Made by a program: the position numbers and the translations under genes
Part shown: positions 48,940 to 64,000 of the stretch, one piece after another
Layout of the letters: every line of letters starts with the position of its first letter
Numbering within the stretch: position 1 is the stretch's first letter
Assembly: GCF_014283215.1 (NCBI RefSeq)
Contig: NZ_JACOMF010000005.1
Span: 62,001-126,000 of the forward strand
DNA from: Siccirubricoccus deserti
GTDB taxonomy: Bacteria > Pseudomonadota > Alphaproteobacteria > Acetobacterales > Acetobacteraceae
Direction: 5' to 3'
DNA length: 64,000 nt
Notes under the pieces: model-generated
Told to the model about the DNA's origin: nothing
Databases searched by the model: none
The model's input: only the letters and a program-made list of their open reading frames with translations

Positions 48940-50232
48940 CTACATCACCCAAACCCCGTCCGTCGCCTGCCCGCCCGCGCCGCCGCCGGTGCCAAGCCCG
49001 CCGGGGTCGGAGCGCCAGGCCGCGCCGCTGCCGGGCGGCTGGAAGGCCCAGTAGCCGGCCTCGTTCTCCGCCGCCTGCAAGGCCAGCGCATCCGGGCTCA
49101 TCGCCACGTCCACCGCGAGCTGCGCGCGGGAGAGGCCGGAGGCAAGGCGGCCGGCGTGCAGCGCCAGCTCCGCCGCGGTCGGGGCGCGGTCCAGCATCTC
49201 CTGGAACAGCAGCGCGACGTAGTCGGCATCGCCCAGCATCGCCCCCGGCCCGGGCGCCATCCCCGCGGCGATCTCCACCCAGCCGATCCCCGCCTCGGCC
49301 TCGCCCGCATGCTGCGCCAGCGCCGCCCCGCCGGCCTCGCCGCCGTGCAGGGCCACCTGCAGCGCCGCCGCCCGCGCCGCCACCCCATCCGCGGTGAACT
49401 CCACATAGCCATCGGCCAGCACCAGCCGCTCCACCCCCCCGAGCCACACCTCGGTCCCGGTCCCCAGCACCAGCTGCACCACCCCGCCGCCATAGGCGTT
49501 CCCCGCCACCACCTGGCGGGCCTCGCGCAGCGCCGTCGCCTGGGTGTCGCCATCCAGGCTGAAGCCGGATTGCGTCTCGCCCGGCTGCAGCAGCGGAATC
49601 ACCGTCTGCTGCTCCTCCGGCGTGCGGACGGTGAGGTCGAGGGTGAAGGCGGCGCTCTGCCGTCCGTCCGAGACCTCGATGACCAATGGATGCAAAGGCG
49701 CCTCGTCGAGGCCGAGGCTGATGCCGTCGCGCAGCTTCAGCGTGTTGCCCACCACCTCGAAGCGCCAGGCGTCCGCCTCGGCAAAGGTGAAGGTGAAGGG
49801 GCCGTCGGTATCCGGGTCGGTCACCGCCAGCGTGCCGATGACGGCGCCGATCGCCCCAGCGGTGACGGCGCCGCCGGTGGCGAAGCGCAGCGCGGTGGGG
49901 GCGGTGTCGTCGCGGTCGAGCACCGTCACCTGATAGGTGGTCGGCAGGTCCAGCATCGTGCCGTCGGCGTAGTTGAGCCGGAGCGCGAACGCCAGCCGCG
50001 GCATGGCCCCGCCGAAACTCTCGAAATCCGCCAGCGCGCCGGGGCTGACGAAGGCGAGGCTGAGGGCGGCATCCCAGCGCACCGAGACATACAGCCCATG
50101 CGGGCCGATCGCCTCGATGCCGGTCAGCCCGGCGAGGTCGCCGGCCAGCGCCAAGGTGCCCACCCAGTCGCCCAGGCGGCTGTTCTCGGCCATGGAAGCC
50201 GGCAGGGAACCCGTCGCCGTCACCATTCGCAT
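48940..50232 (-). CDS. Cadherin-like/DUF4214 surface-type protein
   Basis: 430 residues without a classical signal peptide. Residues about 105-205 form a cadherin-like repeat (IGTLAVTDPDTDGPFTFTFA, FEVVGNTLKLRDG, HPLVIEVSDG). The C-terminal third resembles DUF4214 (YVALLFQEMLDRAPTAAELA, then LASGLSRAQLAVDVAMSPD). Proteins with these parts are usually large secreted adhesins or S-layer-like proteins leaving through type I secretion. This one is short and has no clear RTX nonapeptides. The start region is uncertain. It is divergent from a secreted lectin-like protein gene at 50436. Confidence 0.7.
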   Translation of the reverse strand: MRMVTATGSLPASMAENSRLGDWVGTLALAGDLAGLTGIEAIGPHGLYVSVRWDAALSLAFVSPGALADFESFGGAMPRLAFALRLNYADGTMLDLPTTYQVTVLDRDDTAPTALRFATGGAVTAGAIGAVIGTLAVTDPDTDGPFTFTFAEADAWRFEVVGNTLKLRDGISLGLDEAPLHPLVIEVSDGRQSAAFTLDLTVRTPEEQQTVIPLLQPGETQSGFSLDGDTQATALREARQVVAGNAYGGGVVQLVLGTGTEVWLGGVERLVLADGYVEFTADGVAARAAALQVALHGGEAGGAALAQHAGEAEAGIGWVEIAAGMAPGPGAMLGDADYVALLFQEMLDRAPTAAELALHAGRLASGLSRAQLAVDVAMSPDALALQAAENEAGYWAFQPPGSGAAWRSDPGGLGTGGGAGGQATDGVWVM

Positions 50233-50435
50233 TGCCGCACTCCATCCCGCTGCACCACGTCCATGGAACTGCGCAAAGGCTGAAGAATCCCTTATGTTCG
50301 TCTTTTTGAGACGAAACGAGGATGGAGGTGGATTGGCTGGCGAGACGTTGTGCCTTCACCGGTTCGATGTTGGACCGCGGCCATGGCATCCGGCGTAAGC
50401 TGGCGACCGGGACAAGACCCCGATGGGAGGACAGG

Positions 50436-51095
50436 ATGGTTGCACGACCGATGGCGGCGGCGCTGCTGGCCCTGACGCTGGGCGCCGGCCCCGCGATCGC
50501 CCAGGCCCCGGCCCAGCCGGCCCAGGCCTCGCCGCAGATGAGCTTCTTCGTCACCAGCGCCAATCCCGGCCGTGGCGGCGATCTCGGTGGCCTCGCCGGG
50601 GCGGATGCCCATTGCCGCAACCTCGCCGCCGCGGTCGGTGCCGGCACCCGGAGCTGGCGTGCCTACCTCAGCGCCACCGGCGTCAACGCCCGCGACCGCA
50701 TCGGCCGCGGCCCCTGGCGCAACGCGAAGGGCGAGGTCATCGCCCAGGACCTCGCCGAGCTGCATGGCCAGGCCGCCGGGCTGACCAAGCAGACCGCGCT
50801 GACCGAGCGTGGCACGGTGGTGAACGGCCGCGGGGACACCCCGAACGACCATGACATCCTCACCGGCAGCCAGGCCGACGGCACCGCCTTCACCGGCACC
50901 GAGGACCGCACCTGCCGCGACTGGACCAGCGGCGGGGAGGGCGCGGCCATGGTCGGCCATAGCGACCGCATCGGGCTGCGCGACGATGCCGCCGCGCGGT
51001 CATGGAATTCCTCGCACGTCTCGCGCGGCTGCGACCTGTCGGCGCTGCGCAGCACCGGCGGCGCCGGGCTGTTCTACTGCTTCGCCGCGGATTGA
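50436..51095 (+). CDS. Secreted lectin-like protein
   Basis: 219 residues. The ATG at 50436 is chosen because GGGAGGACAGG precedes it and a signal peptide follows (MAAALLALTLGAGPAIAQ). The mature protein has a compact pattern with four Cys (AHCRNL, RTCRDW, RGCDLS, FYCFA) and blocks FVTSANPGRGGDLGGLAGAD, HDILTGSQADGTAF and SWNSSHVSRGC, reminiscent of C-type-lectin/endostatin-like folds annotated as lectin in alphaproteobacteria. Two disulfides are likely. It should be periplasmic or secreted. The ligand is unknown. pdxA follows 38 bases later on the same strand. Confidence 0.75.
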   Translation: MVARPMAAALLALTLGAGPAIAQAPAQPAQASPQMSFFVTSANPGRGGDLGGLAGADAHCRNLAAAVGAGTRSWRAYLSATGVNARDRIGRGPWRNAKGEVIAQDLAELHGQAAGLTKQTALTERGTVVNGRGDTPNDHDILTGSQADGTAFTGTEDRTCRDWTSGGEGAAMVGHSDRIGLRDDAAARSWNSSHVSRGCDLSALRSTGGAGLFYCFAAD

Positions 51096-51133
51096 CGGTT
51101 ACGCGCCGGGCGGCGCGCGACTACATCGGGGGC

Positions 51134-52132
51134 ATGGACACCCCCATGCCCCCTGAACGGCTCCCGCTGGCGCTGACGATGGGCGAGCCGGCCGGTATCG
51201 GCGGCGAGATCGCCGCCGGCGCCTGGGCCGCGCTGCGCGCCACCGGCCCGGTCTTCCTGCTGATCGACGACGCCAGCCGCATTCCCGGCCCGGTGCGGCG
51301 CATCGAGGCGCCGGAGCAGGCGGCGGCGGTCTTCGGGCAGGCGCTTCCGGTGCTGCACCGGCCGCTGCCGCGCCCCGCCGTGCCCGGCAGGATCGATCCG
51401 GCCAATGCCCCGGCGGTGATCGCCTCGATCGATGAGGCGGTGGCGCTGGCCCGGGCCGGCCGAGCCGCCGGGGTGGTGACCAATCCGATCCAGAAATCCG
51501 CCCTCTACGCCGCCGGTTTCGCCCATCCCGGCCATACCGAATACCTGGCCGAGATCGCCGGCACCGGCGTGCCGCCGGTGATGCTGCTGGCCTGCCCCGA
51601 GCTCCGCGTCGTGCCGGTGACCATCCATGAGCCGCTGAAGCAGGCCATCGCCCGGCTCACCCCCGCGCTGATCGCCGAGGTGGCCCGGCTGACCGCCGCC
51701 GGGTTGCGCCGGGACTTCGGCATCGCCGCGCCGCGCCTCGCCATCGCCGGGCTCAACCCACATGCCGGGGAGGATGGCACCATCGGCACCGAGGACCGCG
51801 ACATCGTCGCCCCCGCCGTCGCCGCGCTGCGGGCGGAGGGGATCGACGCCCGTGGCCCGATCCCGCCGGACACCATGTTCACCGCCAAGGCGCGGCCGGG
51901 CTACGATGTGGCGCTTGGCCTCTATCACGACCAGGCGCTGATCCCGATCAAGACACTCGACATGGCGGGCGGGGTGAATGTGACGCTCGGCCTGTCCATC
52001 GTGCGGACCAGCCCGGACCACGGTACCGCCCTCGACATCGCCGGCACCGGCAGGGCCGACCCGGCCAGCCTGATCGCCGCCCTCCGCCTCGCCGCCGAGA
52101 TCGCGGGCCATCGCCAGAAGGGTTTCGTCTGA
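51134..52132 (+). CDS. pdxA: 4-hydroxythreonine-4-phosphate dehydrogenase
   Basis: 332 residues. The family start LALTMGEPAGIGGEI, the metal-site histidines (HPGHTEYLAE and the HDQALIPIKTLDM block) and the GLNPHAGEDGTIGTED loop are intact. It oxidises 4-phosphohydroxy-L-threonine with NAD in vitamin B6 synthesis. Start at ATG 51134, with 51146 as an alternative. The stop overlaps the pdxJ ATG (TGATG), so the two act in sequence in the pathway and are coupled in translation. Confidence 0.95.
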   Translation: MDTPMPPERLPLALTMGEPAGIGGEIAAGAWAALRATGPVFLLIDDASRIPGPVRRIEAPEQAAAVFGQALPVLHRPLPRPAVPGRIDPANAPAVIASIDEAVALARAGRAAGVVTNPIQKSALYAAGFAHPGHTEYLAEIAGTGVPPVMLLACPELRVVPVTIHEPLKQAIARLTPALIAEVARLTAAGLRRDFGIAAPRLAIAGLNPHAGEDGTIGTEDRDIVAPAVAALRAEGIDARGPIPPDTMFTAKARPGYDVALGLYHDQALIPIKTLDMAGGVNVTLGLSIVRTSPDHGTALDIAGTGRADPASLIAALRLAAEIAGHRQKGFV

Positions 52133-52851
52133 TGCGCCTCTCCGTGAATGTCGACCACGTCGCCACCCTCAGGAACGCCCGCGGCGGCGCCTTTCCCTGT
52201 CCGGTGGAGGCCGCCCGCTGCGCGGTGCGGGCCGGCGCCGATGGGGTGACCGTGCATCTGCGCGAGGACCGCCGCCACATCCGCGACCGCGACGTGGAAC
52301 GCATCTCGGCCGAGGTTGCCACCCGGCTGAATTTCGAGATGGCGGCGACCGAGGAGATGGTCGGCATCTGCCTCCGCCTGAAGCCGCCGGCCTGCTGCCT
52401 GGTGCCGGAGAAGCGCGCCGAGCTGACCACCGAAGGCGGGCTCGACGTGCTGCGCAGCGGCCCCGCCCTCGGCGAGGCGGTGAAGCGTCTGGCCGGCGCC
52501 GGCATCGAGGTCTCGATCTTCATCGAGGCCGATGCGGCGCAGATCGAGGCCGCCGCCCGGCTCGGCGCCCAGGCGATCGAGCTGCATACCGGCACCTACG
52601 CCGATGCCACGCCGGCGGCCCGGGCGCCGCAGCTCGAACGGCTGAAGGCCGGGGCGGCGGCGGCGGCGGCGGCGGGCCTCGCCTGCCATGCCGGGCACGG
52701 GCTGACCTATGACACCATCGGCCCGATCGCCGCCATGCCGCAGGTGGCGGAGGTCTCGATCGGCCATTTCATCATCTCGCAGAGCATCTTCGAGGGGTTG
52801 CCGAGCGTGGTGCACCGCTTCCGCCGGCTGATCACCGAAGCCCGCGGGTAG
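52132..52851 (+). CDS. pdxJ: Pyridoxine 5'-phosphate synthase
   Basis: 239 residues. LSVNVDHVATLRNARGG, VTVHLREDRRHIRDRDV, NFEMAATEEM and LVPEKRAELTTEGGLDV are the classic PdxJ blocks, ending with HAGHGLTYDT and EVSIGHFIIS. It condenses deoxyxylulose 5-phosphate with the PdxA product to pyridoxine phosphate. It begins on the last base of the pdxA stop. A two-hairpin repeat follows the gene. Confidence 0.97.
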   Translation: MRLSVNVDHVATLRNARGGAFPCPVEAARCAVRAGADGVTVHLREDRRHIRDRDVERISAEVATRLNFEMAATEEMVGICLRLKPPACCLVPEKRAELTTEGGLDVLRSGPALGEAVKRLAGAGIEVSIFIEADAAQIEAAARLGAQAIELHTGTYADATPAARAPQLERLKAGAAAAAAAGLACHAGHGLTYDTIGPIAAMPQVAEVSIGHFIISQSIFEGLPSVVHRFRRLITEARG

Positions 52852-52933
52852 CTGCCTCCACGCCCGCGGGCGTTACCGCCCTCCGGCGGTCCGCTCCAAC
52901 AGGGCGTGGAAGAACGGTGGTCGCACCCCACAC

Positions 52934-53013
52934 GTCAGGCGCGGGCTTGGCCCGCGCCTCCGATGCCGGCGGAAAGCCAACGACCTGGGACGGCCGGGCC
53001 ACGCCCGGCCATG
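52934..53013. repeat. Two-hairpin intergenic repeat, copy 5
   Basis: GCGCGGGCTTGGCCCGCGC hairpin near 52938-52957 and CGGCCGGGCCACGCCCGGCC near 52990-53010. It lies between tandem plus-strand genes, pdxJ and the iron-sulfur subunit. Confidence 0.65.
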
Positions 53014-53124
53014 AGGGGTTGTGGTGGCGTTCACGCCCGGCAGCGGATTCCTTCGCGGCCTTGCCGAGGCTTGCCGCCGTCCGCCGGGCACGGGATGCTC
53101 CGCCCCAAAATACGGAGGGGCGGC

Positions 53125-53586
53125 ATGGTGGAATTCACCCTGAACGGCGCGGCGGTGGCGCTGGACGTGCCGTCCGAGGCATCGCTGCTGCAGGCGCTAC
53201 GCGGCCCCGCCGGACTCTCCGGCCCCCGCTTCGGCTGCGGCGACGAGCAATGCGGCAGCTGCATGGTGCTGGTGGATGGCAAGCCTGCCTATGCCTGCAC
53301 CCTCTCCGTCGCGGCCGCTGTCGGACGGGCGGTGACGACAGTGGAAGGCCTCGGCACCCCGGACGCGCCGCACCCGCTGCAGACGGCTTTCCTGGCCGAG
53401 CAGGCTGGGCAATGCGGCTACTGCCTCTCCGGCATCCTGGTCAGCGCCGCGGCGCTGCTGGCGCGGGATCCCGCCCCGGATGAGGCGGCGATCCGCGCCG
53501 CCCTCGACCCGCACCTCTGCCGCTGCGGCAGCCACAACCGGATCATTCGCGCGGTGCGCCGCGCGGCGCGGGAGATGGCGGCATGA
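53125..53586 (+). CDS. 2Fe-2S subunit of molybdenum hydroxylase (IorA/xanthine-oxidase type)
   Basis: 153 residues. The plant-type ferredoxin cluster is CGDEQCGSC with a later Cys in AYACTL; the second cluster is CGYCLSG with CRCG. This is the small subunit of the xanthine-oxidase family as in isoquinoline 1-oxidoreductase or nicotinate dehydrogenase. It carries electrons from the molybdenum centre of the next gene product. GGAGGGG precedes the ATG. The next gene overlaps by four bases (ATGA). No FAD subunit is adjacent, as in IorAB. Confidence 0.93.
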   Translation: MVEFTLNGAAVALDVPSEASLLQALRGPAGLSGPRFGCGDEQCGSCMVLVDGKPAYACTLSVAAAVGRAVTTVEGLGTPDAPHPLQTAFLAEQAGQCGYCLSGILVSAAALLARDPAPDEAAIRAALDPHLCRCGSHNRIIRAVRRAAREMAA

Positions 53587-55748
53587 GCCCGGCGAAGGAG
53601 CCTGGCGCCTCGCCCCAGGGCAGCGGCTTCGCCGCCGTCACCGCCGCGCCGCCGCCGGGGGCGCCGACGCTGCCCGGCAGCCTCAACGGCAACCGCCTTC
53701 TGTCGCACTGGCTCGGCTTTCATGCCGATGGAAAGGTCACCATCACCCCCGGCAAGGTGGAGCTGGGGCAGGGGATTCTCACCACCCTCAGCCAGATCGC
53801 CGCCGATGAGCTGGACGTGGATTTCACCCGCGTCACCGCCCGCGCCGCGGCGACGCCGGACAGCCCGGATGAGGGCGTGACCAGCGGCAGCCTCTCCACC
53901 CAGGACAGCGGCAGCGCGATGCGCCATGCCTGCGCCGCGGCGCGGGCGATCTTCCTGCAGGTGGTGGCGCAGCGCACCGGCATCCCGGTCGAGGACATCA
54001 CCATCGAGGATGGCATCTTCCACGGCCCGGCCGGGGAGATCGGCAGCTACTGGGCACTGGCCGATGCTGCGCTGCTGGAGACCGAGGCGCCGCCCGAGGT
54101 CACGCCGAAGCCCGCTTCGGCACGACGCATCGCCGGCACCTCCGTGCCGCGCATCGACCTGCCGGACAAGGTCTTCGGCGCGGCGCGCTACGTCCATGAC
54201 CTGCGCCTGCCGGGCCTGCTGCACGCCCGCGTGGTCCGCCCGCCGTCGCGCGGCGCGGTACTGACCATGCTGCGCGATGGCCCGCTGCCAGGCGAGGCGC
54301 GGGTGGTGCGCGACGGCAGCTTCCTCGCCGTTCTCGCCGCCACCGAATGGGATGCGGAGGCGGCGGCGACCCGCCTCGCCGCCCGCGCCGAATGGGCGGA
54401 GCGCGACACTTTGCCGGAGGCCACCACCCTGCCCGACTGGCTGCGCGAGGCCGCCGCGCGCGGCGAGCGCAGCGCCGTCGTGCAACGCGGCGACCCCGCC
54501 GCCGGCGTCACCCGCTGGCTGAAGCGCAGCTTCCACCGGCCCTACATCGCCCATGCCTCCATCGCCCCTTCCTGCGCCGTGGCGCGCTGGCAGGACGGGA
54601 GCGTGGAGGTCTGGAGCCATAGCCAGGGCCCCTACAACCTCCGCGCCGATCTGGCGAAGACGCTGAAATGCCCGGCGGAGCGCATCACCGTCCGCCATAT
54701 GGAAGGTGCCGGCTGCTACGGCCATAACGGCGCCGACGACGTGGCGCTGGATGCGGTGCTGGCGGCGCGGGCGGTGCCCGGCGTGCCGGTGCGGCTGCTG
54801 TGGAGCCGGGCGGAGGAGCTGGGCTGGTCGCCCTTCTCCCCCGGCATGCTGGTGGAGATCGAGGCCGGCACCGACGCCACCGGCACGCTGGTGGGCTGGC
54901 GCAGCCACATCATCAGCAACGGCCATTCCTCCCGCCCCGGCCGGGCGCCGGAGCCGACCCTGCTCTCGGCCTCCATGTTGGCCGAGCCTTTCCCGGTGAA
55001 GCCCAGCATCAACCCGCCGATGTCCGGCGGCGGCGGGGCGCCGCGCAACGGCGTGCCGCTCTACCGCATTCCCGGCATGGACATCGCCACCACGAGGCTG
55101 CTGGAGATGCCGATCCGCGCCTCCGCGCTGCGCGGACTCGGCGCCACCTTGAACGTCTGGTCGATCGAGAGCGTGATGGATGAGCTGGCCGGGCAGGCCG
55201 GCGCCGATCCGCTCGACTACCGGCTGCGCCACCTGGACGACGGGCGCGCCGCCGCGGTGCTGACCCGCGTGGCGGAGATGGCCGGCTGGGCGAAGCGGGT
55301 GAAGCGCGAGGGATGGGGCCTTGGCCTCGGCATGGCGCGCTACAAGAACCTCGGCGGCTGGGCCGCCGTGGTGGCGGAGGTGGAGGCGTGCGAGCGGGTG
55401 TTCTGCCGAAGGCTCTGGATCGCCGGCGATGTCGGCGAGGTGGTGAACCCGGATGGTGTCGCCAACCAGTACGAGGGCGGCGCCATCCACGGCACCAGCG
55501 TCGCGCTGCTGGAGCAGGTGCGCTTCGACCGCCGCCGCGTCACCAGCGACAGCTGGGAGGACTACCCGATCCTCCGCTTCTCCGAGGTGCCGCGGGTGGA
55601 GGTTGCGTTCATCGACCGGCCGGAGCAGCCCTTCCTCGGCGCCGGTGAAGCCAGCATGGCGCCGACCATCGCGGCCATCGGCAATGCCATCACCGACGCG
55701 CTGGGTGTGCGGCCCTCGCGGTTGCCGTTTACGCCGGATAACCTCTGA
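53583..55748 (+). CDS. Molybdopterin-cytosine-dinucleotide subunit of aldehyde/N-heteroaromatic hydroxylase (IorB-like)
   Basis: 721 residues, the large subunit of the same enzyme. The start region GKVTITPGKVELGQGILTTL, the second large domain after RIAGTSVPRIDLPDKVFGAA, and the C-terminal FLGAGEASMAPTIAAIGNAI, whose Glu is the catalytic base of the family, are all there. The IorB-like group hydroxylates N-heteroaromatic rings or aldehydes with water as oxygen source. No cytochrome c domain is fused, and no cytochrome gene is next to it, so the electron acceptor is unclear. A perfect hairpin directly follows the stop. Confidence 0.9.
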   Translation: MSPAKEPGASPQGSGFAAVTAAPPPGAPTLPGSLNGNRLLSHWLGFHADGKVTITPGKVELGQGILTTLSQIAADELDVDFTRVTARAAATPDSPDEGVTSGSLSTQDSGSAMRHACAAARAIFLQVVAQRTGIPVEDITIEDGIFHGPAGEIGSYWALADAALLETEAPPEVTPKPASARRIAGTSVPRIDLPDKVFGAARYVHDLRLPGLLHARVVRPPSRGAVLTMLRDGPLPGEARVVRDGSFLAVLAATEWDAEAAATRLAARAEWAERDTLPEATTLPDWLREAAARGERSAVVQRGDPAAGVTRWLKRSFHRPYIAHASIAPSCAVARWQDGSVEVWSHSQGPYNLRADLAKTLKCPAERITVRHMEGAGCYGHNGADDVALDAVLAARAVPGVPVRLLWSRAEELGWSPFSPGMLVEIEAGTDATGTLVGWRSHIISNGHSSRPGRAPEPTLLSASMLAEPFPVKPSINPPMSGGGGAPRNGVPLYRIPGMDIATTRLLEMPIRASALRGLGATLNVWSIESVMDELAGQAGADPLDYRLRHLDDGRAAAVLTRVAEMAGWAKRVKREGWGLGLGMARYKNLGGWAAVVAEVEACERVFCRRLWIAGDVGEVVNPDGVANQYEGGAIHGTSVALLEQVRFDRRRVTSDSWEDYPILRFSEVPRVEVAFIDRPEQPFLGAGEASMAPTIAAIGNAITDALGVRPSRLPFTPDNL

Positions 55749-55771
55749 CGAGAGGGGCGCCGCCCCTCTCG
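55749..55771 (+). terminator. Hairpin terminator-like sequence after the hydroxylase genes
   Basis: CGAGAGGGGCG-C-CGCCCCTCTCG, a perfect 11-bp stem with a one-base loop as written, starting right after the stop codon. No T-run follows closely (GTTTTTGG is about 25 bases on), so it may only stabilise mRNA ends. Confidence 0.5.
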
Positions 55772-55820
55772 TGCCCGCTCCGCCAGAGGCCGGAAGGTTT
55801 TTGGAAGCCATGAGTTGGCC

Positions 55821-56725
55821 ATGACGATCAGCATCACGCTTGCCTGCACGCTCAGCGATCGGGCCCGGCCGATCCTGGATGAGGGCATCAGCATCCGGGC
55901 ATCCGTCTCACGGCGCTGCCGGGAGAGCCGGGGGGCATCTTCCGCCGCGCCCTGCGCGACCGCGCCTCCGAAATCTCCGAACTCTCCAAGGGTTCGCACA
56001 TCGTCAGCACGGCACGCGGCGACAGCCCCTATGTCGGCGTGCCCGTCTTCCTCTCCCGCGGCATCCGCACGCCGGCCGAGTTGGCGGGGAAGACCATCGG
56101 CCTGCCGGAATGCCAGCAGACCGCCGCCCTCTGGGTCCGCGGCATGTTGCGGGAGCACTACGGGGCCGACACGCGCCGCATCGCCTGGCGCACCGGCGGG
56201 GAGCGGATGCCGATCACCCTGCCGCCGGGCTTCGACGTGAGGCCACAGGGCGAGGGCCTGCCAGAGGCCCTGGCTTCCGGTCGCGTCGATGCGCTGGCCG
56301 CCACGCGCCCGCCCGCCTGTCTGCTGGACGGCCCCGCCCCGGTCGCCCGGCTCCGGCCTGACACGCACGCGGAGGAGATCGCCTGGCACCGGGCGACGGG
56401 GTTCTTCCCCATCATGCGTTGCCTGGCGGTGCGGAAGGATGTGGCGGGGCGCCGCCCCTGGCTGCCGGTGGAACTGCACCGCGCCTTCTGCAAGGCGCGC
56501 GCGCTGTCGCTGGCGGAGCTGCAGCTGACCAAGGTGCTGCGGGTCTCGCTGCCCTGGATCGCCAATGCCTATGCCGAGCAGGCGGCAATCATGGGCGGCA
56601 ACCCCTGGCCCTATGGCTTCGCCCGCAATTGCACCGAGATGGAGGCGATGATCCGCTACGCCGTGGCCGATAGGATGGCAGCGGAGGCGCTGTTCCACCC
56701 GAGCACCCTGGCGGAACCCACATGA
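55821..56725 (+). pseudogene. 4,5-dihydroxyphthalate decarboxylase-like/binding protein gene, frameshifted
   Basis: Begins MTISITLACTLSDRARPILD and is clearly one gene of about 301 residues, but the frame breaks near 55895. The bases AGCATCCGGGCATC lack one C of an expected CCC; adding it restores PGIRLTALPGEPGG and then SPYVGVPVFLSRG onward. The remaining 228 residues read LPECQQTAALWVRG, FFPIMRCLAVRKDV and NPWPYGFARN, the pattern of 4,5-dihydroxyphthalate decarboxylases, a periplasmic-binding-like fold. Without repair only the C-terminal part could be made, from an ATG at 56039. It overlaps the monooxygenase start (ATGA). Decay or a sequence error cannot be told apart here. Confidence 0.75.
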
Positions 56726-57903
56726 GCGAGCCGATTCTGATCGCCGGCGGCGGCATCGGCGGGCTTGGCGCCGCGCTGGCACTGGCGCGCGCCGGCCATC
56801 CGGTGCGGCTGTTCGAGCGTGGTGCCGAATTCCGCGAGCTTGGCGCCGGCATCCAGCTCGGCCCCAATGTTTTCGGCATGTTCGACCGCCTCGGCGTGCG
56901 CGCCGCCATGGAGGCGCAGGCGGCCTTCCCCAAGGCGCTGGTGATGCGCTGCGCGATCCATGGCCACGAGATCGCCCGCATCCCGCTGGAAGGCATGCCG
57001 GCGCGCTATGGCAACCCCTACGCCGTCATCCATCGCGGCGACATGCTGGAGGCGCTGCTCGCCGCCTGCCGCACCACGCCCGGCGTCTCGCTCGAGACCA
57101 GCCGCACCGTCACCGGCTACGAGCAGGATGCGGCGGGGGTGACCTTGCGCTTCGAATCGGGTGGGCCGGTGCGCGGCGCCGCGCTGGTCGGTGCCGACGG
57201 ACTCTGGAGCCGCATCCGCGCGCAACTCCTGGGTGACGGCCCGCCTGTCGTCTCCGGCCACATTGCCTATCGCGCGGTGCTGCCGATGGCCGAGGTGCCT
57301 GAGGGTATTCCGCGCAACATCGTCCAGCTCTGGGCCGGGCCGCGGCTGCATCTGGTGCATTACCCGCTGCGCCGGGGCGAGCTGATGAACCTTGTCGCCG
57401 TCTTCCACTCCGACCGCTACGAGGAGGGCTGGGACCAGGCCGGCGACACCGCCCTGCTGTGGGAGCATTTCGCGGGCACGCGGCCGGAGGTGCGGGCGAT
57501 GCTCGGGAAGATCGACGCCTGGCGCTTCTGGGTGCTCTGCGATCGCGAGCCGCAGCGCGGCTGGTCGGAGGGGCGGGTGGCGCTGCTGGGCGACGCGGCG
57601 CATCCGATGCTGCAGTATCTGGCGCAGGGCGCGAACATGGCGCTGGAGGATGCGGTCTGCCTCGCCGACCAGCTCGCCCTGCATGGCGACATCCCGCGGG
57701 CGCTGGCGGAATACGAGGCGCAGCGGGTGCTGCGCACCGGCCGGGTGCAGACCACGGCCCGCATCTTCGGCGAGATCTATCATGCGGCGGGGGTGCGGGC
57801 GGAGCTGCGCGACCAATGGCTGGCCGGGCGCGACCCGGCGACGGCGCGGGAGGGCATGGCCTGGCTCTACGACCGTCCGCGCTGGCCGGGGGAGCCGGGC
57901 TGA
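56722..57903 (+). CDS. FAD-dependent monooxygenase (3-hydroxybenzoate 6-hydroxylase/salicylate hydroxylase type)
   Basis: 393 residues. The dinucleotide motif is IAGGGIGGLGAALALARAG; the group A hydroxylase signatures are ALVGADGLWSRIR and VALLGDAAHPMLQYLAQGAN with MALEDA. GAGIQLGPN near the N-terminus is typical of aromatic-acid hydroxylases. With NAD(P)H and O2 it should add a hydroxyl group to an aromatic or N-heteroaromatic acid. The ring substrate is unknown. It overlaps the upstream gene by four bases and precedes a Bug-type binding protein. Confidence 0.9.
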   Translation: MSEPILIAGGGIGGLGAALALARAGHPVRLFERGAEFRELGAGIQLGPNVFGMFDRLGVRAAMEAQAAFPKALVMRCAIHGHEIARIPLEGMPARYGNPYAVIHRGDMLEALLAACRTTPGVSLETSRTVTGYEQDAAGVTLRFESGGPVRGAALVGADGLWSRIRAQLLGDGPPVVSGHIAYRAVLPMAEVPEGIPRNIVQLWAGPRLHLVHYPLRRGELMNLVAVFHSDRYEEGWDQAGDTALLWEHFAGTRPEVRAMLGKIDAWRFWVLCDREPQRGWSEGRVALLGDAAHPMLQYLAQGANMALEDAVCLADQLALHGDIPRALAEYEAQRVLRTGRVQTTARIFGEIYHAAGVRAELRDQWLAGRDPATAREGMAWLYDRPRWPGEPG

Positions 57904-58159
57904 CCTCTGCGACTGTCAGGCCGGGGCTCCTACCGGCGGCATGACTGTTCCATTCATGCCGAGGCCGCGACCGGTGCCCGCCGGTCGCGCAAGGCGCGGC
58001 GCATGACGAACGAGGGCCGGTTGATCGGCCGCGCCGCCCGTGAGTGTGGTTGCCCGGGCAGGCGCTGCCCTGGCCAGGCCGGTCATGGGCTGGCAGCATC
58101 GGCGAAACCCCGGCGCAGGCTCCGCCCGCGCCCCAAGCGAAGGGAATGCCGGAAACCCC

Positions 58160-59158
58160 ATGACCCATGCTTCTGCTCTCTCGCGCCGGGGCCTGGCGCT
58201 GCTCGCCGCCGCGCCGGCTCTCGGCCGGCTGACGACGCCGCGCGCCGCCGCGGCGCAGGACATCGCCTGGCCGACCCGTCCGCTGCGTGCCCTGGTCGCC
58301 TTCCCCGCCGGCAGCGGCACCGACTCCCTGGCGCGCTTCTATGGCGAGCGGCTTACGCGCGCCCTCGGCCAGCCGGTGCCGGTGGAGAACATGGGCGGGG
58401 CGAACGGCGTCATCGCCACCCGCGCCGCGGCACGCGCAGCGCCGGATGGCACCACCATGTTCTTCGGCACGGTCTCCACCCATGCCGCCAACCCGAATCT
58501 GCTGCGTGAGCCGGGCTTCGACCCGATCAAGGATTTCGCGCCGGTCTCGCTCATCACCATCAACGCCCTGGCGCTGCTGGTGCGGGCGGATTTCCCGGCG
58601 CGCACCCTGCAGGAGTTCATCGCCCGGGCGCGGAGCGCGGAGAACCCGCTGAATTACGGCATCGGCAATGCCGGCGGCATCGGGGGGACGCATCTGCTGC
58701 GCCAGGCCACCGGCATCCGCGGCGAGCAGATCGCCTATCGCGGCACGCCGGCGGCGATCACCGACCTGCTCGGCGGACGGCTGGACTTCATGGTGGTCGA
58801 CCTCGGCCCGGCGGTGACGCATCTGCGCGCCGGCACACTGCGGGCGCTGGCGGTGACCACGCCGCAGCGGATCGACTTGCTGCCCGATGTGCCGACGATG
58901 CAGGAGGGCGGGCTGGCCGGCTACGATTTCGCCTCCTGGAATGCGGTGTGGATGCCGGCGCGGACCCCGGCGCCGATCATCGCCCGGCTGAACCGCGAGA
59001 TCGTTGCGATCGGCGAAAGCGCCGAGGCGAAGCGCTTCGCCGCCGCCATGGGCGTCACCTCCACGACCAGCACGCCGGAGGCGCTGGAGGCCTTCACCCG
59101 GCGGGAGTTGGCGCTCTGGGAGCGGATCGTGGCGGAGGCGGGGATTCCGAAGGAATGA
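58160..59158 (+). CDS. Tripartite tricarboxylate transporter substrate-binding protein (Bug family)
   Basis: 332 residues. A Tat/Sec-like leader (SRRGLALLAAAPALGRLT then AAAAQD) precedes the Bug fold: RPLRALVAFPAGSGTDSLAR, VPVENMGGANGVIATRAAA, YGIGNAGGIGGTHLLRQATG and PDVPTMQEGGLAGYDF. These periplasmic proteins bind carboxylated or aromatic solutes for TctAB-type transporters, but no tctA or tctB is nearby, as is usual for this very large family. The ATG at 58160 starts the leader. Position suggests uptake of the substrate for the neighbouring enzymes. Confidence 0.92.
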   Translation: MTHASALSRRGLALLAAAPALGRLTTPRAAAAQDIAWPTRPLRALVAFPAGSGTDSLARFYGERLTRALGQPVPVENMGGANGVIATRAAARAAPDGTTMFFGTVSTHAANPNLLREPGFDPIKDFAPVSLITINALALLVRADFPARTLQEFIARARSAENPLNYGIGNAGGIGGTHLLRQATGIRGEQIAYRGTPAAITDLLGGRLDFMVVDLGPAVTHLRAGTLRALAVTTPQRIDLLPDVPTMQEGGLAGYDFASWNAVWMPARTPAPIIARLNREIVAIGESAEAKRFAAAMGVTSTTSTPEALEAFTRRELALWERIVAEAGIPKE

Positions 59159-59235
59159 GCCGGGCTCGCTGACGCCGGCGGCTCGGGGATGGCAGACTGA
59201 GGGCAGTGACATGCAATCGCGGGAGGGCCAGGACC

Positions 59236-60006
59236 ATGAGCCGCTTCGACAGCTACGCCACGAGATACTCCTGCATCCGGATGCGGCGTGAGAACGGCAT
59301 CCTTGAAGTGCGGCTGCACACCGATGACGGACCACTGCGCTGGGGTCTGGTGCCGCATGGCGAACTGCCCGACGCCTTCGCCGACATCGCGCGCGACCGC
59401 GATAACCGCGTGGTGATCCTGACCGGGACGGGCGAGGAATTCTCCGGCATCCGCGCCACCGCCGGTACCCGGTCCCTGGCCCAGGGCATCACCGCCAACG
59501 CCTATGACCGGGTGCATTGGGAAGGCCGTGCCCTGCTGATGAACCTGCTGAATATCGAGGTGCCGGTGATCGCCGCCATCAACGGCCCGGCCTGGCGGCA
59601 TTGCGAGATCCCGCTGCTGTCGGACATCGTGCTGGCCTCCGACACCGCGGCCTTCCAGGATTCGGCGCATTTCATGTCCGGCATGCTGCCGGGTGACGGC
59701 ATGCACATCGTCATGCCACTGCTGATGGGCATGAACCGCGGCCGCTACTTCCTTCTAACCGGCCAGACGCTGTCCGCCCAGGAGGCGAAGGAGCTCGGTC
59801 TGGTGGCGGAGGTGCTGCCGCCGGACAAGGTGCTGGCCCGCGCCTGGGAACACGCCGAGGCGCTGGCGCAGAAGCCGACCCTGCTGCTGCGCTACACACG
59901 GCTGATGTTCACCGAATACCTGCGGAAGCGGATGCAGGATCTGCTCGGCTACGGCCTGGCGATGGAAGGGCTGGCGCTGATGGAGCAGACCGGGCCGGAG
60001 GAGTAG
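59236..60006 (+). CDS. Crotonase-superfamily hydrolase resembling 6-oxocamphor hydrolase
   Basis: 256 residues from ATG 59236, after GGGAGGGCCAGG. Crotonase fold: VVILTGTGEEFSG, NLLNIEVPVIAAINGP, LLSDIVLASDTAAFQDSAHF and NRGRYFLLTGQTLSAQEAKE. The match in wording and spacing to 6-oxocamphor hydrolase (a beta-diketone-cleaving crotonase), as I remember it, is close, including Trp-x-x-x-x-His in RWGLVPHGEL, the Asp-x-x-His of AFQDSAHF and the whole EVPVIAAINGP region. It lacks strong signs of a normal enoyl-CoA hydratase Glu pair. So C-C cleavage of a cyclic beta-diketone is plausible, though CoA substrates are not excluded. Confidence 0.8.
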   Translation: MSRFDSYATRYSCIRMRRENGILEVRLHTDDGPLRWGLVPHGELPDAFADIARDRDNRVVILTGTGEEFSGIRATAGTRSLAQGITANAYDRVHWEGRALLMNLLNIEVPVIAAINGPAWRHCEIPLLSDIVLASDTAAFQDSAHFMSGMLPGDGMHIVMPLLMGMNRGRYFLLTGQTLSAQEAKELGLVAEVLPPDKVLARAWEHAEALAQKPTLLLRYTRLMFTEYLRKRMQDLLGYGLAMEGLALMEQTGPEE

Positions 60007-60018
60007 CTGCGCCGCCAC

Positions 60019-60099
60019 ATCATGCACGGGCCTGACCCGTGTAGCCATTTTCGTTGTGGCGACAGTGGGTTGGATGGCCGGTCAAGCCCGGCCATGACG
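60019..60099. repeat. Two-hairpin intergenic repeat, copy 6
   Basis: CATGCACGGGCCTGACCCGTG and, about 40 bp on, GGATGGCCGGTCAAGCCCGG followed by CCATGACGG. It lies between the convergent crotonase and protease genes. Confidence 0.65.
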
Positions 60100-60131
60100 G
60101 GTCGGGGACGGTCACGCCCCTCCGCATCCCG

Positions 60132-61172
60132 CTATCGCTCGCAGCGGATGAACAGCGTGCTGCGGTGGGCGACCTCGCCGATGTCGGCGGTGCTGCGGTC
60201 CGGATCCTGGCTGGGGGCGATCCGCGGCTGCAGCCCGGCGCGGCGGACGAACTCCAGCGCTGCCGCGCCCTTCACCGCGAAATTGACGTTCTGCGCGATG
60301 TCGCCGGTGACCCGCGCCAGCCGCTGCGCATTCAGCTTGGAGACGACGACGCCAACCACATTGCCCTGGCGGTCCAGCAGCGGCCCGCCGGAATTGCCCG
60401 GCTGCACCGCGGCGCTGATCTGGAATTGCGCCTGGTTGTCGGCCAGCCCGGCCAGGCCGCTGATGACTCCCTCGGTCAGCTTGGGGTCGGAGGAGAGGAC
60501 CCCAGCCAGCGGGAAGCCATAGGTCACCACGCTCTCGCCACGGCGGACCTCCGGCGTGCTGCGGAAGGCCAGCGCCGGGCCGGGCAGCCCGGGCACCGCC
60601 AGCAGCGCCAGATCGAGCTGCGCATCCACCCGCGCCGGCGGCACCGCCCCCAGCCAGCGGCCGTCCGGCGCGCGCATGACGATGCGGTCGCAGCCACCGA
60701 CCACATGCTGGTTGGTCAGCACGCGATCCGCCGCCACCAGGAAGCCGGTGCCGGTCGAGACGTTGCGGGCGCCGGTGTTCGGCCGCTGCTGCGGCACCGC
60801 GGGGGCGGGCGGCACCGGCGCGGCGCCCAGGGCCGGGCGGGGCAGCGCCGCCTGGTCCAGCACCAATTCCCGCGCCACGCAGATGTCCTGGTCGCGCAGC
60901 ACGGATTCGCGCCCATCGGCCAGCACCAGCCGCAGGTCGAAGCGGCAGCCGGCCGCTTCGTTCGGGTTGACGCGGAAGCCCGCGCCTGGGCGCAGCGGCC
61001 GGTCGGGGGAGAGCAGGTTATTTCCCCATAACCCCTCCGCGCCGCGCGGCGTGCGCACCGCATAAAGCGCCGTCGCATCGGCGCCGGTGCGGTTGGTGAC
61101 GCGGAAGGGCTGCGGTTCGGCCGCGGCCGGGGCGGCGATCAGCAGCAGCAGGGCGAGGGGAAGGTACTTCAT
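60132..61172 (-). CDS. Exported trypsin-like serine protease, paralogue of 1948-2823
   Basis: 346 residues with a signal peptide (KYLPLALLLLIAAPAAAEP). A domain of about 110 residues with two Cys (AAGCRFDLRL and DICVAREL) precedes the protease domain. The triad is His in TNQHVVGGC, Asp in AQLDLALLAV and Ser in QPGNSGGPLLD. No PDZ domain follows. The last 190 residues are close to the protease at 1948-2823, while the N-terminal domain is absent there. So the two share a catalytic module and differ in targeting or recognition. Substrate unknown. Confidence 0.87.
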   Translation of the reverse strand: MKYLPLALLLLIAAPAAAEPQPFRVTNRTGADATALYAVRTPRGAEGLWGNNLLSPDRPLRPGAGFRVNPNEAAGCRFDLRLVLADGRESVLRDQDICVARELVLDQAALPRPALGAAPVPPAPAVPQQRPNTGARNVSTGTGFLVAADRVLTNQHVVGGCDRIVMRAPDGRWLGAVPPARVDAQLDLALLAVPGLPGPALAFRSTPEVRRGESVVTYGFPLAGVLSSDPKLTEGVISGLAGLADNQAQFQISAAVQPGNSGGPLLDRQGNVVGVVVSKLNAQRLARVTGDIAQNVNFAVKGAAALEFVRRAGLQPRIAPSQDPDRSTADIGEVAHRSTLFIRCER

Positions 61173-61296
61173 GCCGGCGAGATGTCGACCAATCCCGCTG
61201 GCGTTTCAATCACCCCCAGTGACCCTGAACCTCGGCACCTTCAGAGGCCCTCATGCCAGCGAACCGGCCGATGACCGTTTCGTCGTGCCGCACAGG

Positions 61297-62274
61297 CTAC
61301 CCCGCCCGCGCCCCGATCCGCCGCACCACCGCGCCATACATTTCACGCTCCCGGTGGATGCGGCTGGCGAAGGCCTCGCCGGCCTCGAACCGTGGCATCA
61401 GCCCCATCGGCGCCATCGCCCGCGCCGCCTCTGGCGCCGCCAGGGCGGTCTGCAGCGCCCCGGTCAGCCGGTCGACGACCGGCCGCGCGATGCCGGCGGG
61501 GGCGGCGATGCCGAACCAGGGCATTGCCTCGGCCTTTGCCAGCCCGGCCTCCCGCAGGGTCGGCACATCCGGCAGCTGCGGGTTGCGGGTCTCGCCGATG
61601 GTGGCAATGCCGGTCAGCCTGCCCTCGACGATTGCCGGGATCGCCACCGGGTCGAACAGGAGCTGGATCCGCCCCGCCAGCAGGTCGGTCAGCGAGGGTG
61701 CCGAGCCGCGATAGGGCACGTGCTCCAGCCGGATGCCGGCGGCCTCGGCGAACATCTCGCCGGAGAGCTGGGTGATGGTGCCATTGCCGGCCGAGCCGAA
61801 GCGCAGCTCGCCAGGGTGGGCCTTGGCATGCGCCACCAGCCCGGCGACGTCGCGGAAGGGCAGCGACGGGTGGGCGACGACGATGCCGTAGGCGACCGCG
61901 CTCATCGAAATGGGGGTGAAGGCGGTAGCCGGGTCGTAGGACAGGGACATGATGTGCGGGCTGATGGTCAGCACCGCGGTCGGGAAGGCCAGCAGGGTCA
62001 AGCCGTCCGGCCGGGCTCGGGCGACCACCTCGGCGCCGATGCTGCCGCCGGCGCCGGCGCGGTTCTCGATCACCACCGTCTGGCCGAGCAGCTCGCTCAG
62101 CCGCGGTACCAGCGGGCGGATCGCGAGGTCGGAGGTGCCGCCCGGCGGGTAGGGCACGACCATCGTCAGCGGCCGGCCCTGGTCCTGCTGCGCGCGGGCA
62201 AGGCGTGGGGCGGCGAGCGCCGGCACGGCCGCCAGGGCCAGCAGCCCGCGGCGCCCGGGGTATTGGTGGGCCAT
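61297..62274 (-). CDS. Tripartite tricarboxylate transporter substrate-binding protein (Bug family)
   Basis: 325 residues. The leader GRRGLLALAAVPALAAPRLA is followed by the Bug pattern: RPLTMVVPYPPGGTSDLAIR, VVIENRAGAGGSIGAEVVAR, FGSAGNGTITQLSGEMF and LPDVPTLREAGLAKAEAMPW. It is a periplasmic solute-binding protein for a TctAB-type carrier; the ligand is unknown and no carrier gene is near. An R2 repeat lies 40 bp upstream of its start, as for exbB. It stands alone. Confidence 0.92.
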   Translation of the reverse strand: MAHQYPGRRGLLALAAVPALAAPRLARAQQDQGRPLTMVVPYPPGGTSDLAIRPLVPRLSELLGQTVVIENRAGAGGSIGAEVVARARPDGLTLLAFPTAVLTISPHIMSLSYDPATAFTPISMSAVAYGIVVAHPSLPFRDVAGLVAHAKAHPGELRFGSAGNGTITQLSGEMFAEAAGIRLEHVPYRGSAPSLTDLLAGRIQLLFDPVAIPAIVEGRLTGIATIGETRNPQLPDVPTLREAGLAKAEAMPWFGIAAPAGIARPVVDRLTGALQTALAAPEAARAMAPMGLMPRFEAGEAFASRIHREREMYGAVVRRIGARAG

Positions 62275-62313
62275 GGAGTCCTCCCTGTGTTCTTGCTTAT
62301 GGCGTGGAGTTTA

Positions 62314-62382
62314 GAGCGGTTCCGTTCGCCTTGGCTCACGGAACTGCTCCAGTCGTCTTGTTTGGACGAGCAAATTACTCCG
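62314..62382. repeat. Dispersed repeat R2, copy 2
   Basis: Matches 23265-23336 (shared CGCCTTGGCTCACG and CGAGCAAATT). The central palindrome has decayed to GAGCAAATTACTC. As with copy 1 it is upstream of a minus-strand gene start. Confidence 0.6.
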
Positions 62383-62462
62383 ATCCGGTAATTCAGCCAG
62401 CTCGGAGTCTGCCCTGGCAGACTGCGGAGAAGCGCGGACAACGCTCGTGCCCGCCGCCTCCT

Positions 62463-62548
62463 CGTCGGGGCCGGGCTTGACCCGGTCATCCGTTAGTAAG
62501 CGGCTTCTGCCGAACATATGGATGCGCCGGTCAAGCCCGCGCATGGCG
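62463..62548. repeat. Two-hairpin intergenic repeat, copy 7
   Basis: GGGGCCGGGCTTGACCCGGTC at one end and GATGCGCCGGTCAAGCCCGC followed by GCATGG at the other. It lies between tandem minus-strand genes. Confidence 0.7.
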
Positions 62549-62639
62549 GAAATGGGCGCGCATCGCCATTCTTCCGCAGCCTGCCAGCGCGAACGGACGT
62601 CCCGGCGGCACAGCCATTCTGCAGGCGAGGGAGGTCGGT

Positions 62640-63071
62640 TCACGCGGCGATCCCGAGCAATTCGCGCAGCGCCGGCGCGGGCTGCGCCAGCTCGGCGATG
62701 GTGGTCGCGTCCAGCACCGCGAGGAAGGCCTCGCGCGCCTGGTGCAGCGTCTGCTTGAGCCGGCAGGCCGGCAGGATGGCACAGTCGGCGCCGGCGAAGC
62801 AGGGGACCAGAGCCATGTCCGGCTCGACCCGCCGCACCACCTCGCCGGCGGTGATCTCCGCCGCCGGCCGTCCCAGGCTCAGCCCGCCGCCGCGGCCGCG
62901 CAGGGTGGTCACGTAGCCGGCCTGCCCGAGGAGATGCGCCACCTTCATCAGATGGTTCTCCGAGATGCGGTAGGCCGCAGCCACCTCGGCGATGGTGGCG
63001 CGACCGTCCGGCCGCAGCGCGAGGTGGATCAGCATGCGGAGGGAGAAGTCGGTCAGGGCGGTGAGGCGCAT
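62640..63071 (-). CDS. nsrR: NsrR-type Rrf2 regulator, nitric-oxide sensing
   Basis: 143 residues. The Rrf2 winged helix (LTALTDFSLRMLIHLALRPD, ISENHLMKVAHLLGQAGYV, TLRGRGGGLSLGRPA) is followed by the cluster cysteines Cys91, Cys97 and Cys103. Asp8 is present at the position used as a fourth ligand in NsrR. The spacing matches NsrR, not IscR. It holds a NO-sensitive iron-sulfur cluster and represses NO-defence genes until NO destroys the cluster. The ATG at 63071 fits the family start; 63086 is less likely. It is divergent from a small membrane protein and a globin, with matching operators between them. Confidence 0.92.
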   Translation of the reverse strand: MRLTALTDFSLRMLIHLALRPDGRATIAEVAAAYRISENHLMKVAHLLGQAGYVTTLRGRGGGLSLGRPAAEITAGEVVRRVEPDMALVPCFAGADCAILPACRLKQTLHQAREAFLAVLDATTIAELAQPAPALRELLGIAA

Positions 63072-63077
63072 GGCCAA

Positions 63078-63096
63078 AAGATGCATGGTAAATCTT
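63078..63096. promoter_or_regulatory. Possible second, shorter NsrR-like site at the nsrR start
   Basis: AAGATGCATGGTAAATCTT, with an AAGATGCAT half-site like NsrR boxes but a shortened spacing. It lies just upstream of the nsrR start codon, so it could serve autoregulation. Confidence 0.35.
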
Positions 63097-63121
63097 GCTT
63101 TACAAGCCTCGGCCTTATAAG
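63095..63121 (+). promoter_or_regulatory. Probable promoter of the small protein/haemoglobin operon
   Basis: TTGCTT at 63095-63100 and TATAAG at 63116-63121, 15 bases apart, on the plus strand. The -10 hexamer overlaps the NsrR box, so bound repressor would block RNA polymerase. Spacing is short, hence moderate confidence. Confidence 0.4.
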
Positions 63122-63141
63122 ATGTATGATGTTTACATCTT
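63119..63141. promoter_or_regulatory. NsrR operator
   Basis: A 23-bp palindrome with perfect arms AAGATGTA and TACATCTT around a seven-base centre, closely fitting the known NsrR consensus (AAGATG-N11-CATCTT). It sits between nsrR and the divergent globin operon, ending 11 bases before the first plus-strand start codon. Confidence 0.8.
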
Positions 63142-63152
63142 AACGGGCGCCC

Positions 63153-63305
63153 GTGAGTCCGCTCCAGCTGTTCCTCCTGCCCGGCAACCTGCTCAGCGAT
63201 GCGCTGCACATCGCCGATCCCGACAGCCGCACCATGTTGCGCATCCTGGTGAACATGCTGGTGTGGAACCTGGTGGCGGTGCTCGCCGTGCTGCCCTTCA
63301 TCTGA
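63153..63305 (+). CDS. 50-residue single-span membrane protein under NsrR control
   Basis: Starts at GTG 63153 (VSPLQLFLLPGNLLSDALHI) and ends with a hydrophobic segment of about 20 residues (LVNMLVWNLVAVLAVLPF). The middle is polar (ADPDSRTMLRI). It is too short for usual gene callers. It is likely real because it fills the space between an NsrR operator and the haemoglobin gene, ends 19 bases before that gene, and its codon use fits the genome. No strong ribosome-binding site is seen; translation may be from a short leader. Family not recognised; it may be an NO-linked membrane partner. Confidence 0.6.
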   Translation: MSPLQLFLLPGNLLSDALHIADPDSRTMLRILVNMLVWNLVAVLAVLPFI

Positions 63306-63324
63306 CGCGCCAAGGCCCGAGTTC

Positions 63325-63720
63325 ATGACCGACATCACCGAAGCGGAGATCGCCCTGCTGGTGGAGCGCTTCTACGGCCGCGTCCGCGCCCACCCGTCGC
63401 TCGGCCCGGTCTTCCACGCCGCCATCGGCGAGTCGGAAGCCGCCTGGGACCGGCACCTCGCCAGGCTGCGGCAATTCTGGTCGTCGGTGATGCTGCGCAG
63501 CGGCGCCTATCACGGCGACCCCTACAGCGTGCACCTGCGGCTGCCCGGGCTGACGCCGGCGCTCTTCGCCGATTGGCTCGCGCTGTTCGACACGACCTGC
63601 ACCGAGCTCTTCCCGGAACCGCTCGCAGCGGCATTCCAGGAACGTGCGCAGCGCATCGCCCGCAGCCTGCAAATGGGGCTGTTCGATCGCCTGCCCCCGG
63701 TACGGACTGCGGCCGGCTGA
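63325..63720 (+). CDS. Group III truncated haemoglobin
   Basis: 131 residues. LLVERFYGRVRAHPSLGPVF starts the globin fold. RHLARLRQFWSSVMLRSGAY and the following HGDPYSVHLRL are the group III pattern, with the haem-binding His in this region. Such globins bind O2, CO and NO and are thought to detoxify NO or related species. It follows the 50-residue membrane protein by 19 bases and is divergent from nsrR across a clear NsrR operator, so NO control is well supported by context. Confidence 0.9.
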   Translation: MTDITEAEIALLVERFYGRVRAHPSLGPVFHAAIGESEAAWDRHLARLRQFWSSVMLRSGAYHGDPYSVHLRLPGLTPALFADWLALFDTTCTELFPEPLAAAFQERAQRIARSLQMGLFDRLPPVRTAAG

Positions 63721-64000
63721 TGCGGCCATGCGGCGGGCAGCATGGCGGCAGGGCCCGATAACCCGGCGACAGGACAGCGCTGCAGCGCACCGCGTCGCGC
63801 CATGGCACGATGCCGTGACTTGCCGAAGCCTGCCAAGGATGCGATCCCTACGGTACGATGTTGATCCTTGTGACATTCCACCGTCGCCTCGCTCACGCGG
63901 GCAGTCTGATCACGGGCGTCTAGCCCCGGGTCGGGGTGGTGCGCGTCCGGCGCCTGCCTGAACCCGGGGGATACTCCATCGGAGAATCCTGTTCCGTCGT
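63721..64000. other. 280 bp at the window end without a gene
   Basis: No ORF with protein-like composition, no tRNA and no clear terminator or operator was seen. It may hold the promoter of a gene beyond the window. Confidence 0.4.

Follow-up and report, generated by a model that had tools for sequence, protein, structure and literature searches.

Among the described systems that the present locus resembles is a pair of enzymes of Alcaligenes sp. UK21, a quinolinate dehydrogenase and a 6-hydroxyquinolinate decarboxylase (Uchida et al. 2003, as quoted in PMC6346535 and PMC6644310). In the account quoted, no cofactor requirement was reported for the decarboxylase, which was said to resemble phthalate decarboxylases (PMC6644310). 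The same two activities, hydroxylation of an N-heterocycle followed by decarboxylation, would be expected of the products of iorAB and dhpD, genes represented in Siccirubricoccus deserti at positions 53125–57903 of a 64,000-nucleotide stretch (the window; bases 62001–126000 of contig 221 in a 6.33-Mb draft genome of 275 contigs). The proteins were characterised in UK21, whereas here the genes alone are known, and no UK21 gene sequence was found in the literature searched, so the likeness is by activity only.

The locus is a rearranged, partly decayed copy of a conserved operon of the Roseomonas-group Acetobacteraceae, found in many relatives of the acetic-acid bacteria from soil and water. This operon, Bug-iorA-iorB-dhpD, encodes a Bug solute-binding protein, the two subunits of a molybdenum hydroxylase and a decarboxylase-like protein, with a flavin adenine dinucleotide (FAD) monooxygenase as an optional last gene. 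We regard the anatomy as a whole, that is, a conserved operon, a dead dhpD and unrelated 3' genes in the window, as well established though short of certain. No direct functional description of such an operon was found in the literature searched (on the gene set, quinolinate genes and the decarboxylase structure).

IorB, dhpD and the FAD protein served as queries for the operon in 397 genomes of the family, and membership of the iorB clade was set at 58% identity or more. Separately, named genomes were scanned with an alignment of dhpD, which gave the best 80 loci, nearly all from Acetobacteraceae and the rest from Rhodospirillales or Alphaproteobacteria bins. (L- and G-numbers below denote loci and genomes of these comparison sets; G000 is the genome of the window.) The clade comprised 78 iorB genes in 75 of the 397 genomes. 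For 67 of the 78, the dead copy of the window being counted, dhpD lay no more than 400 bp downstream in the same orientation, and for 65 the distance was at most 37 bp; the FAD gene was next in 10 of these 78 iorB operons. Among the 80 dhpD loci, iorB was adjacent in 63, the FAD gene in 7 and a crotonase gene in none, and a Bug gene of a single orthologous group stood upstream of most. The gene ends in intact operons overlapped by a few bases (L029 and L033, for example). The linkage of iorAB and dhpD is well beyond chance.

In many relatives (L033, L037, L040, L045 and others), the operon was located between ATP-grasp-like, alpha-E-like and proteasome-type protease genes, or an amidase gene, and queuosine genes (queE/D/C, tgt and queA, as read from the starts of their sequences). 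In Siccirubricoccus it adjoins pdxA and pdxJ instead of this usual site, which indicated that the operon had moved in the genus. Of the 80 loci, 14, all in Roseomonas, Pararoseomonas or Pseudoroseomonas, had an FCD regulator gene and a fumarylacetoacetate-hydrolase-family gene ahead of the operon. On plasmids of Roseomonas marmotae and R. haemaphysalidis (L146, L147), the operon had the form Bug-Bug-iorA-iorB-dhpD, 3' of the same two genes.

The two nearest genomes in the comparison set belonged to the genus of the window strain. One of them was Siccirubricoccus soli KC 17139 (G002), and the S. soli orthologue of IorB was 83% identical to that of the window. In S. soli an opposite-strand gene for an RTX-repeat protein was found between iorB and dhpD (L028:7981–9606), so that the two parts of the operon are about 2.2 kb apart.

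In the window, pdxA and pdxJ are followed by iorA, iorB, a decarboxylase-like frame, the FAD gene, a Bug gene and a crotonase gene, all on the plus strand. The coordinates and families given for this run by an earlier, sequence-only reading were borne out, except for the wholeness of the decarboxylase gene. Its proposal that the run formed one cluster held for iorAB, the decarboxylase-like gene and the FAD gene, which occurred in the same order in several Acetobacteraceae genera, but failed for the crotonase and the window Bug.

The window dhpD (55821–56725, plus strand) was found to be damaged. The open frame at 56039–56725, previously taken for a dihydroxyphthalate-decarboxylase-like gene, is a remnant comprising only the C-terminal two thirds. 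It matched only residues 115–344 of the 349-residue solved enzyme (PDB 9jp7). The N-terminus could be read in another frame from 55821 up to a one-base frameshift at about 55894. An internal TGA was flagged by the genome search. There were also two in-frame deletions, one of 13 codons at about 56056 (AFRH...RTDR of the relatives) and one of 5 codons near the 3' end. The 13-codon deletion removed conserved residues, and the deleted segment spans the predicted strand after the long strand E69–78 of the AlphaFold model of an intact relative. Substitutions were present at 13 positions invariant in 17 orthologues, whereas no intact orthologue deviated at more than 7. At nearly invariant columns the window dhpD deviated at 18 of 108, compared with a mean of 1.1 (80 homologues).

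Judged from these lesions, the window dhpD is a pseudogene and not an intact full-length member of its family. No second dhpD was found in the window genome at the search thresholds used. The corresponding deviations at invariant columns were 0 of 64 in iorA (18 orthologues), 1 of 216 in iorB and 2 of 200 in the FAD protein; by this measure these three genes are without signs of decay. That the frameshift was a sequencing or assembly error in an intact gene is hardly credible. The draft state of the genome, in its 275 contigs, speaks for an error, but a single base cannot account for the 13-codon and 5-codon in-frame deletions and the 13 substitutions at invariant positions. The error was rejected on these other lesions in the same gene.

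Intact dhpD of the relatives is, by homology and predicted fold, a member of the 4,5-dihydroxyphthalate decarboxylase family. The orthologues matched 9jp7, the enzyme of Comamonas testosteroni, over the full length (profile E 1.6e-95, about 41–42% identity). The AlphaFold model (mean predicted local distance difference test score 85.6) was superposed on the same structure with Z 37.7 and 1.9 A over 311 residues at 41% identity; the next matches in the structure search, to sulfonate-binding proteins and MqnA/MqnD enzymes, were at Z 20.2 or less. The operon dhpD differs from the Comamonas gene in being linked to a molybdenum hydroxylase and not to a phthalate dioxygenase, and the window copy differs in being a pseudogene. 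In public annotation dhpD is named an ABC transporter substrate-binding protein. Its sequence begins directly with the first strand of the fold, with no signal peptide.

The molybdenum hydroxylase is encoded by iorA (53125–53586, plus strand), for a small subunit of 153 aa, and iorB (53583–55748, plus strand), for a molybdopterin-binding large subunit of 721 aa. IorA contained the Pfam domains Fer2 and Fer2_2, with eight cysteines for two [2Fe-2S] clusters, and IorB contained MoCoBD_1 and MoCoBD_2 domains, with a GxGE motif near the C-terminus that aligned with that of 8gy3. No gene for an FAD subunit was present. This two-subunit layout is that of isoquinoline 1-oxidoreductase IorAB and of the nicotinate dehydrogenase NicAB type, and the domain order of the large subunit is presumably that of known IorB. 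NicB carries fused cytochrome domains, which the window IorB does not have; neither these nor a twin-arginine translocation (Tat) signal was found in its sequence.

The FAD gene (56722–57903, plus strand) is intact and, as the sequence-only reading had noticed, overlaps the gene before it, by 4 bp. Its product was assigned to the 3-hydroxybenzoate 6-hydroxylase family, as it scored 475.6 bits against NF006021 (curated cut-off 459). Like the enzyme of Rhodococcus jostii RHA1 (PDB 4bjy), it has His213, Tyr217 and Gln301, here as the equivalents H210, Y214 and Q298, and these were kept in all 15 clade members. We take Gln301 to be an active-site residue, also in view of the variant chain 4bk2. 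His213 and Tyr217 are active-site residues of 3-hydroxybenzoate 6-hydroxylase (PMC5472690). In contrast to the Rhodococcus enzyme, the window FAD gene ends an iorAB-dhpD operon with no gentisate dioxygenase gene alongside. No gentisate pathway genes were seen among the annotated window neighbours or in the operon loci read, the whole genome not having been searched for them. The place of the FAD gene at the end of the operon suggested that the enzyme acts on a different aromatic acid.

A 65% relative of the FAD gene in G112 (L051:2868–4788) adjoins a class II aldolase-family gene. The latter was considered as a dihydroxyphthalate decarboxylase but kept only as a lead, its best match, NF053537 (3,4-dihydroxyphthalate decarboxylase), being far below the cut-off. 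In G190 (L136:4384–4620), the FAD gene and a dhpD remnant of 78 residues were all that was left at the usual operon site, Bug, iorA and iorB being gone.

The distribution of dhpD losses bears on the status of the window copy. dhpD was dead or absent in 3 of the 10 operons with an adjacent FAD gene (G000, G061 and G294), compared with 2 of the 68 without, one of these two being at a contig edge (Fisher p 0.014, a value that ignores shared ancestry and rests on small numbers, with G000 in the count because it is the window genome). The FAD tree, together with the intact close relatives (G145, G232) of G061 and G294, suggested at least three separate losses. One explanation is that the FAD enzyme made dhpD dispensable, through use of a monocarboxylate such as picolinate or through oxidative removal of the carboxylate, and that the window copy is a working, remodelled pathway. 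A strain that has the FAD gene and uses a monocarboxylate (picolinate, for instance) would have no need of dhpD. The undecayed state of iorA, iorB and the FAD gene in the window agrees with this, as does the dhpD remnant beside the FAD gene in G190. On the other hand, G190 has also lost iorAB and G023 has the FAD gene alone, so the FAD enzyme may act independently. We hold this explanation as a serious possibility that falls short of probable.

Alternatively, the window copy may be a dying relic without a present role, in which iorAB and the FAD gene have not yet decayed. The loss of both the cognate Bug and dhpD, and the move from the usual chromosomal site, would be expected of a relic. The lack of excess substitutions at invariant columns in iorA, iorB and the FAD gene, as compared with the 13 and the deletions in dhpD, would not. 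A relic is possible, though less likely than not.

From the family assignments and the gene order we infer the following route. In an intact operon, the Bug protein would deliver an N-heteroaromatic (di)carboxylate, and IorAB would hydroxylate the ring carbon next to the nitrogen, using water. The dhpD product would be a cofactor-free decarboxylase with the periplasmic-binding-protein fold and would remove the carboxylate para to the new hydroxyl. Where present, the FAD enzyme would hydroxylate para to the hydroxyl introduced by IorAB. The route would run from quinolinate through 6-hydroxyquinolinate and 6-hydroxypicolinate to 3,6-dihydroxypicolinate. Quinolinate as the substrate of the operon is our best guess, and a tentative one. 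In the window strain, with dhpD dead and the cognate Bug gone, the enzymes that are left could still act on a monocarboxylate such as picolinate.

The structure formulas agree with such a route. The aza-analogue of 4-hydroxyphthalate is 6-hydroxyquinolinate, whose departing carboxylate would stand para to the hydroxyl, the arrangement seen with 4,5-dihydroxyphthalate. In the same way, 3-hydroxybenzoate has 6-hydroxypicolinate as its aza-analogue, which an enzyme like 3-hydroxybenzoate 6-hydroxylase would turn into 3,6-dihydroxypicolinate by para-hydroxylation. Ligands of Bug-family proteins include dicarboxylates and, for Bug27, nicotinate (PMC8556258). 3,6-Dihydroxypicolinate is an intermediate of picolinate breakdown, and 6-hydroxypicolinate and 3,6-dihydroxypicolinate would be shared with the pic cluster of Alcaligenes faecalis JQ135 and Bordetella bronchiseptica (PMC10142695). 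The pic cluster differs in that its lower-pathway genes are clustered with it, whereas none were seen beside the operon.

On Cupriavidus necator plasmid pBB2 (L148:1550–8984), cousins of dhpD (46%) and of the FAD enzyme (47%) were found in one cluster with gentisate-dioxygenase-like and fumarylacetoacetate-hydrolase-like genes, possibly a route from hydroxyphthalate to gentisate. The sharing of one cluster by the dhpD cousin and an FAD enzyme of the 3-hydroxybenzoate 6-hydroxylase type is an outside parallel for the proposed pathway.

Four observations weigh against the route through pyridine acids. The 6-hydroxypicolinate monooxygenase of the pic cluster, PicB, is a multi-component enzyme and not of the family of the window FAD enzyme (PMC10142695). 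Neither a 2,5-dihydroxypyridine dioxygenase nor a maleamate amidase was present in the annotated flanks, the rest of the genome not having been searched. In 16 of the 80 dhpD loci no iorAB was found in the stretch covered, and for 6 of the 78 iorB genes dhpD was elsewhere in the genome; iorAB and dhpD can therefore work apart. Finally, the best solved relative of IorB was the large subunit of an aldehyde dehydrogenase (8gy3) and not an N-heterocycle hydroxylase.

The last observation also favours a different assignment, in which the operon serves a benzene-type acid, either because IorAB oxidises aldehydes or alcohols or because the substrate of dhpD is a benzenoid hydroxyphthalate. It would fit with dhpD being closest to an enzyme of a phthalate pathway, and with the gentisate-dioxygenase-like gene in the cluster of the pBB2 cousin. 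Periplasmic aldehyde dehydrogenases, however, have a Tat signal or a cytochrome partner, unlike IorB, and the annotation of the loci read showed no phthalate ring dioxygenase beside the operon. A benzene-type acid is possible but on the whole unlikely.

The two genes 3' of the FAD gene were interpreted as neighbours. The window Bug/TctC gene (58160–59158, plus strand; PF03401) is not an orthologue of the operon Bug. The sequence-only reading had made its product the uptake protein of the cluster, but it was less than 40% identical to the operon Bugs, while those in the first position of the operon were mostly 75–90% identical to each other. It was rejected as the transporter protein of the operon by this identity, and is probably an unrelated neighbour. 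No orthologue of the operon Bug was found in the window genome (best 46%), whereas an orthologue at 78–80% is retained in S. soli, G061 and G294. The window genome encodes at least 53 Bug/TctC proteins (E 1e-60 or better). With so many, a Bug gene will often lie next to a catabolic gene by chance, and its presence beside any gene is weak evidence.

The crotonase gene (59236–60006, plus strand) is intact and encodes a crotonase-fold protein of the 6-oxocamphor hydrolase/ALR4455 group. The likeness to 6-oxocamphor hydrolase seen from the sequence alone was upheld. The closest solved relatives were the Anabaena beta-diketone hydrolase (ABDH; 2j5g) and 6-oxocamphor hydrolase (OCH; 1o8u), far ahead of any enoyl-CoA hydratase, with alignment over the length. 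The catalytic residues of ABDH are H43, H144, D153 and E243 (PMC3584854), and these aligned with H51, H155, D164 and E254 of the crotonase (266-aa reading). This suggested a beta-diketone hydrolase of the OCH/ABDH type, independent of coenzyme A (CoA).

The crotonase is a neighbour and not a member of the operon. A search of 150 family genomes gave 13 other matches, nine of them 80–91% identical, all on contigs apart from iorB or the FAD gene. Its context in the relatives also differs from that of the OCH and Anabaena enzymes: in G001, G002, G026, G165 and G115, it adjoins genes for an iron alcohol dehydrogenase, an FMO-like monooxygenase or both. The crotonase and iron alcohol dehydrogenase genes were found together in L024 (6378–10139), L025, L026 and L145 and overlapped by 4 bp in the first two; the FMO-like monooxygenase gene was sometimes there as well. 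These three genes are a candidate for an alicyclic-ketone cluster of their own.

It had been proposed that all genes from iorA to the crotonase formed one catabolic cluster, for uptake, two hydroxylations and ring opening as a cyclic beta-diketone. The single strand, the span within 7 kb and the four catalytic residues of CoA-independent beta-diketone hydrolases all favour such a cluster. On gene order in the relatives, the ground for refutation that the sequence-only reading had itself named, it was rejected: the crotonase was on another contig in all 13 matches and in none of the 80 dhpD loci. With the unrelated Bug, a 256-bp gap between the FAD and Bug genes and a dead gene in the middle, a single cluster is very improbable.

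A GC-rich perfect hairpin, found by folding and motif search, follows iorB (55749–55771). The suggestion that it may split the run into two transcripts stood as far as the hairpin itself; there was no T run, and neither a terminator nor a sigma-70 promoter was found there in the scan, so a terminator role is unproven. No RNA families were found in 50000–64000. On the opposite strand, 3' of the crotonase, are genes for a trypsin-like protease, a second Bug protein and an Rrf2 regulator. Farther away, at 44676–48143 on the minus strand, a gene whose 1155-aa product has POR and DUF6537 domains and is probably of the indolepyruvate-ferredoxin-oxidoreductase type adjoins an Lrp/AsnC regulator gene.

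The window shows that a plausible 7-kb cluster can consist of a conserved operon, chance neighbours and a dead gene. In the family at large, a molybdenum hydroxylase is tied by this operon to a decarboxylase of the cofactor-free type in 75 of the 397 Acetobacteraceae genomes sampled, about one in five. The analysis also suggests that proteins labelled as ABC transporter substrate-binding proteins in this group may be decarboxylases. If the guess at quinolinate is true, the operon would assign genes to a pathway that has so far been described from its enzymes.

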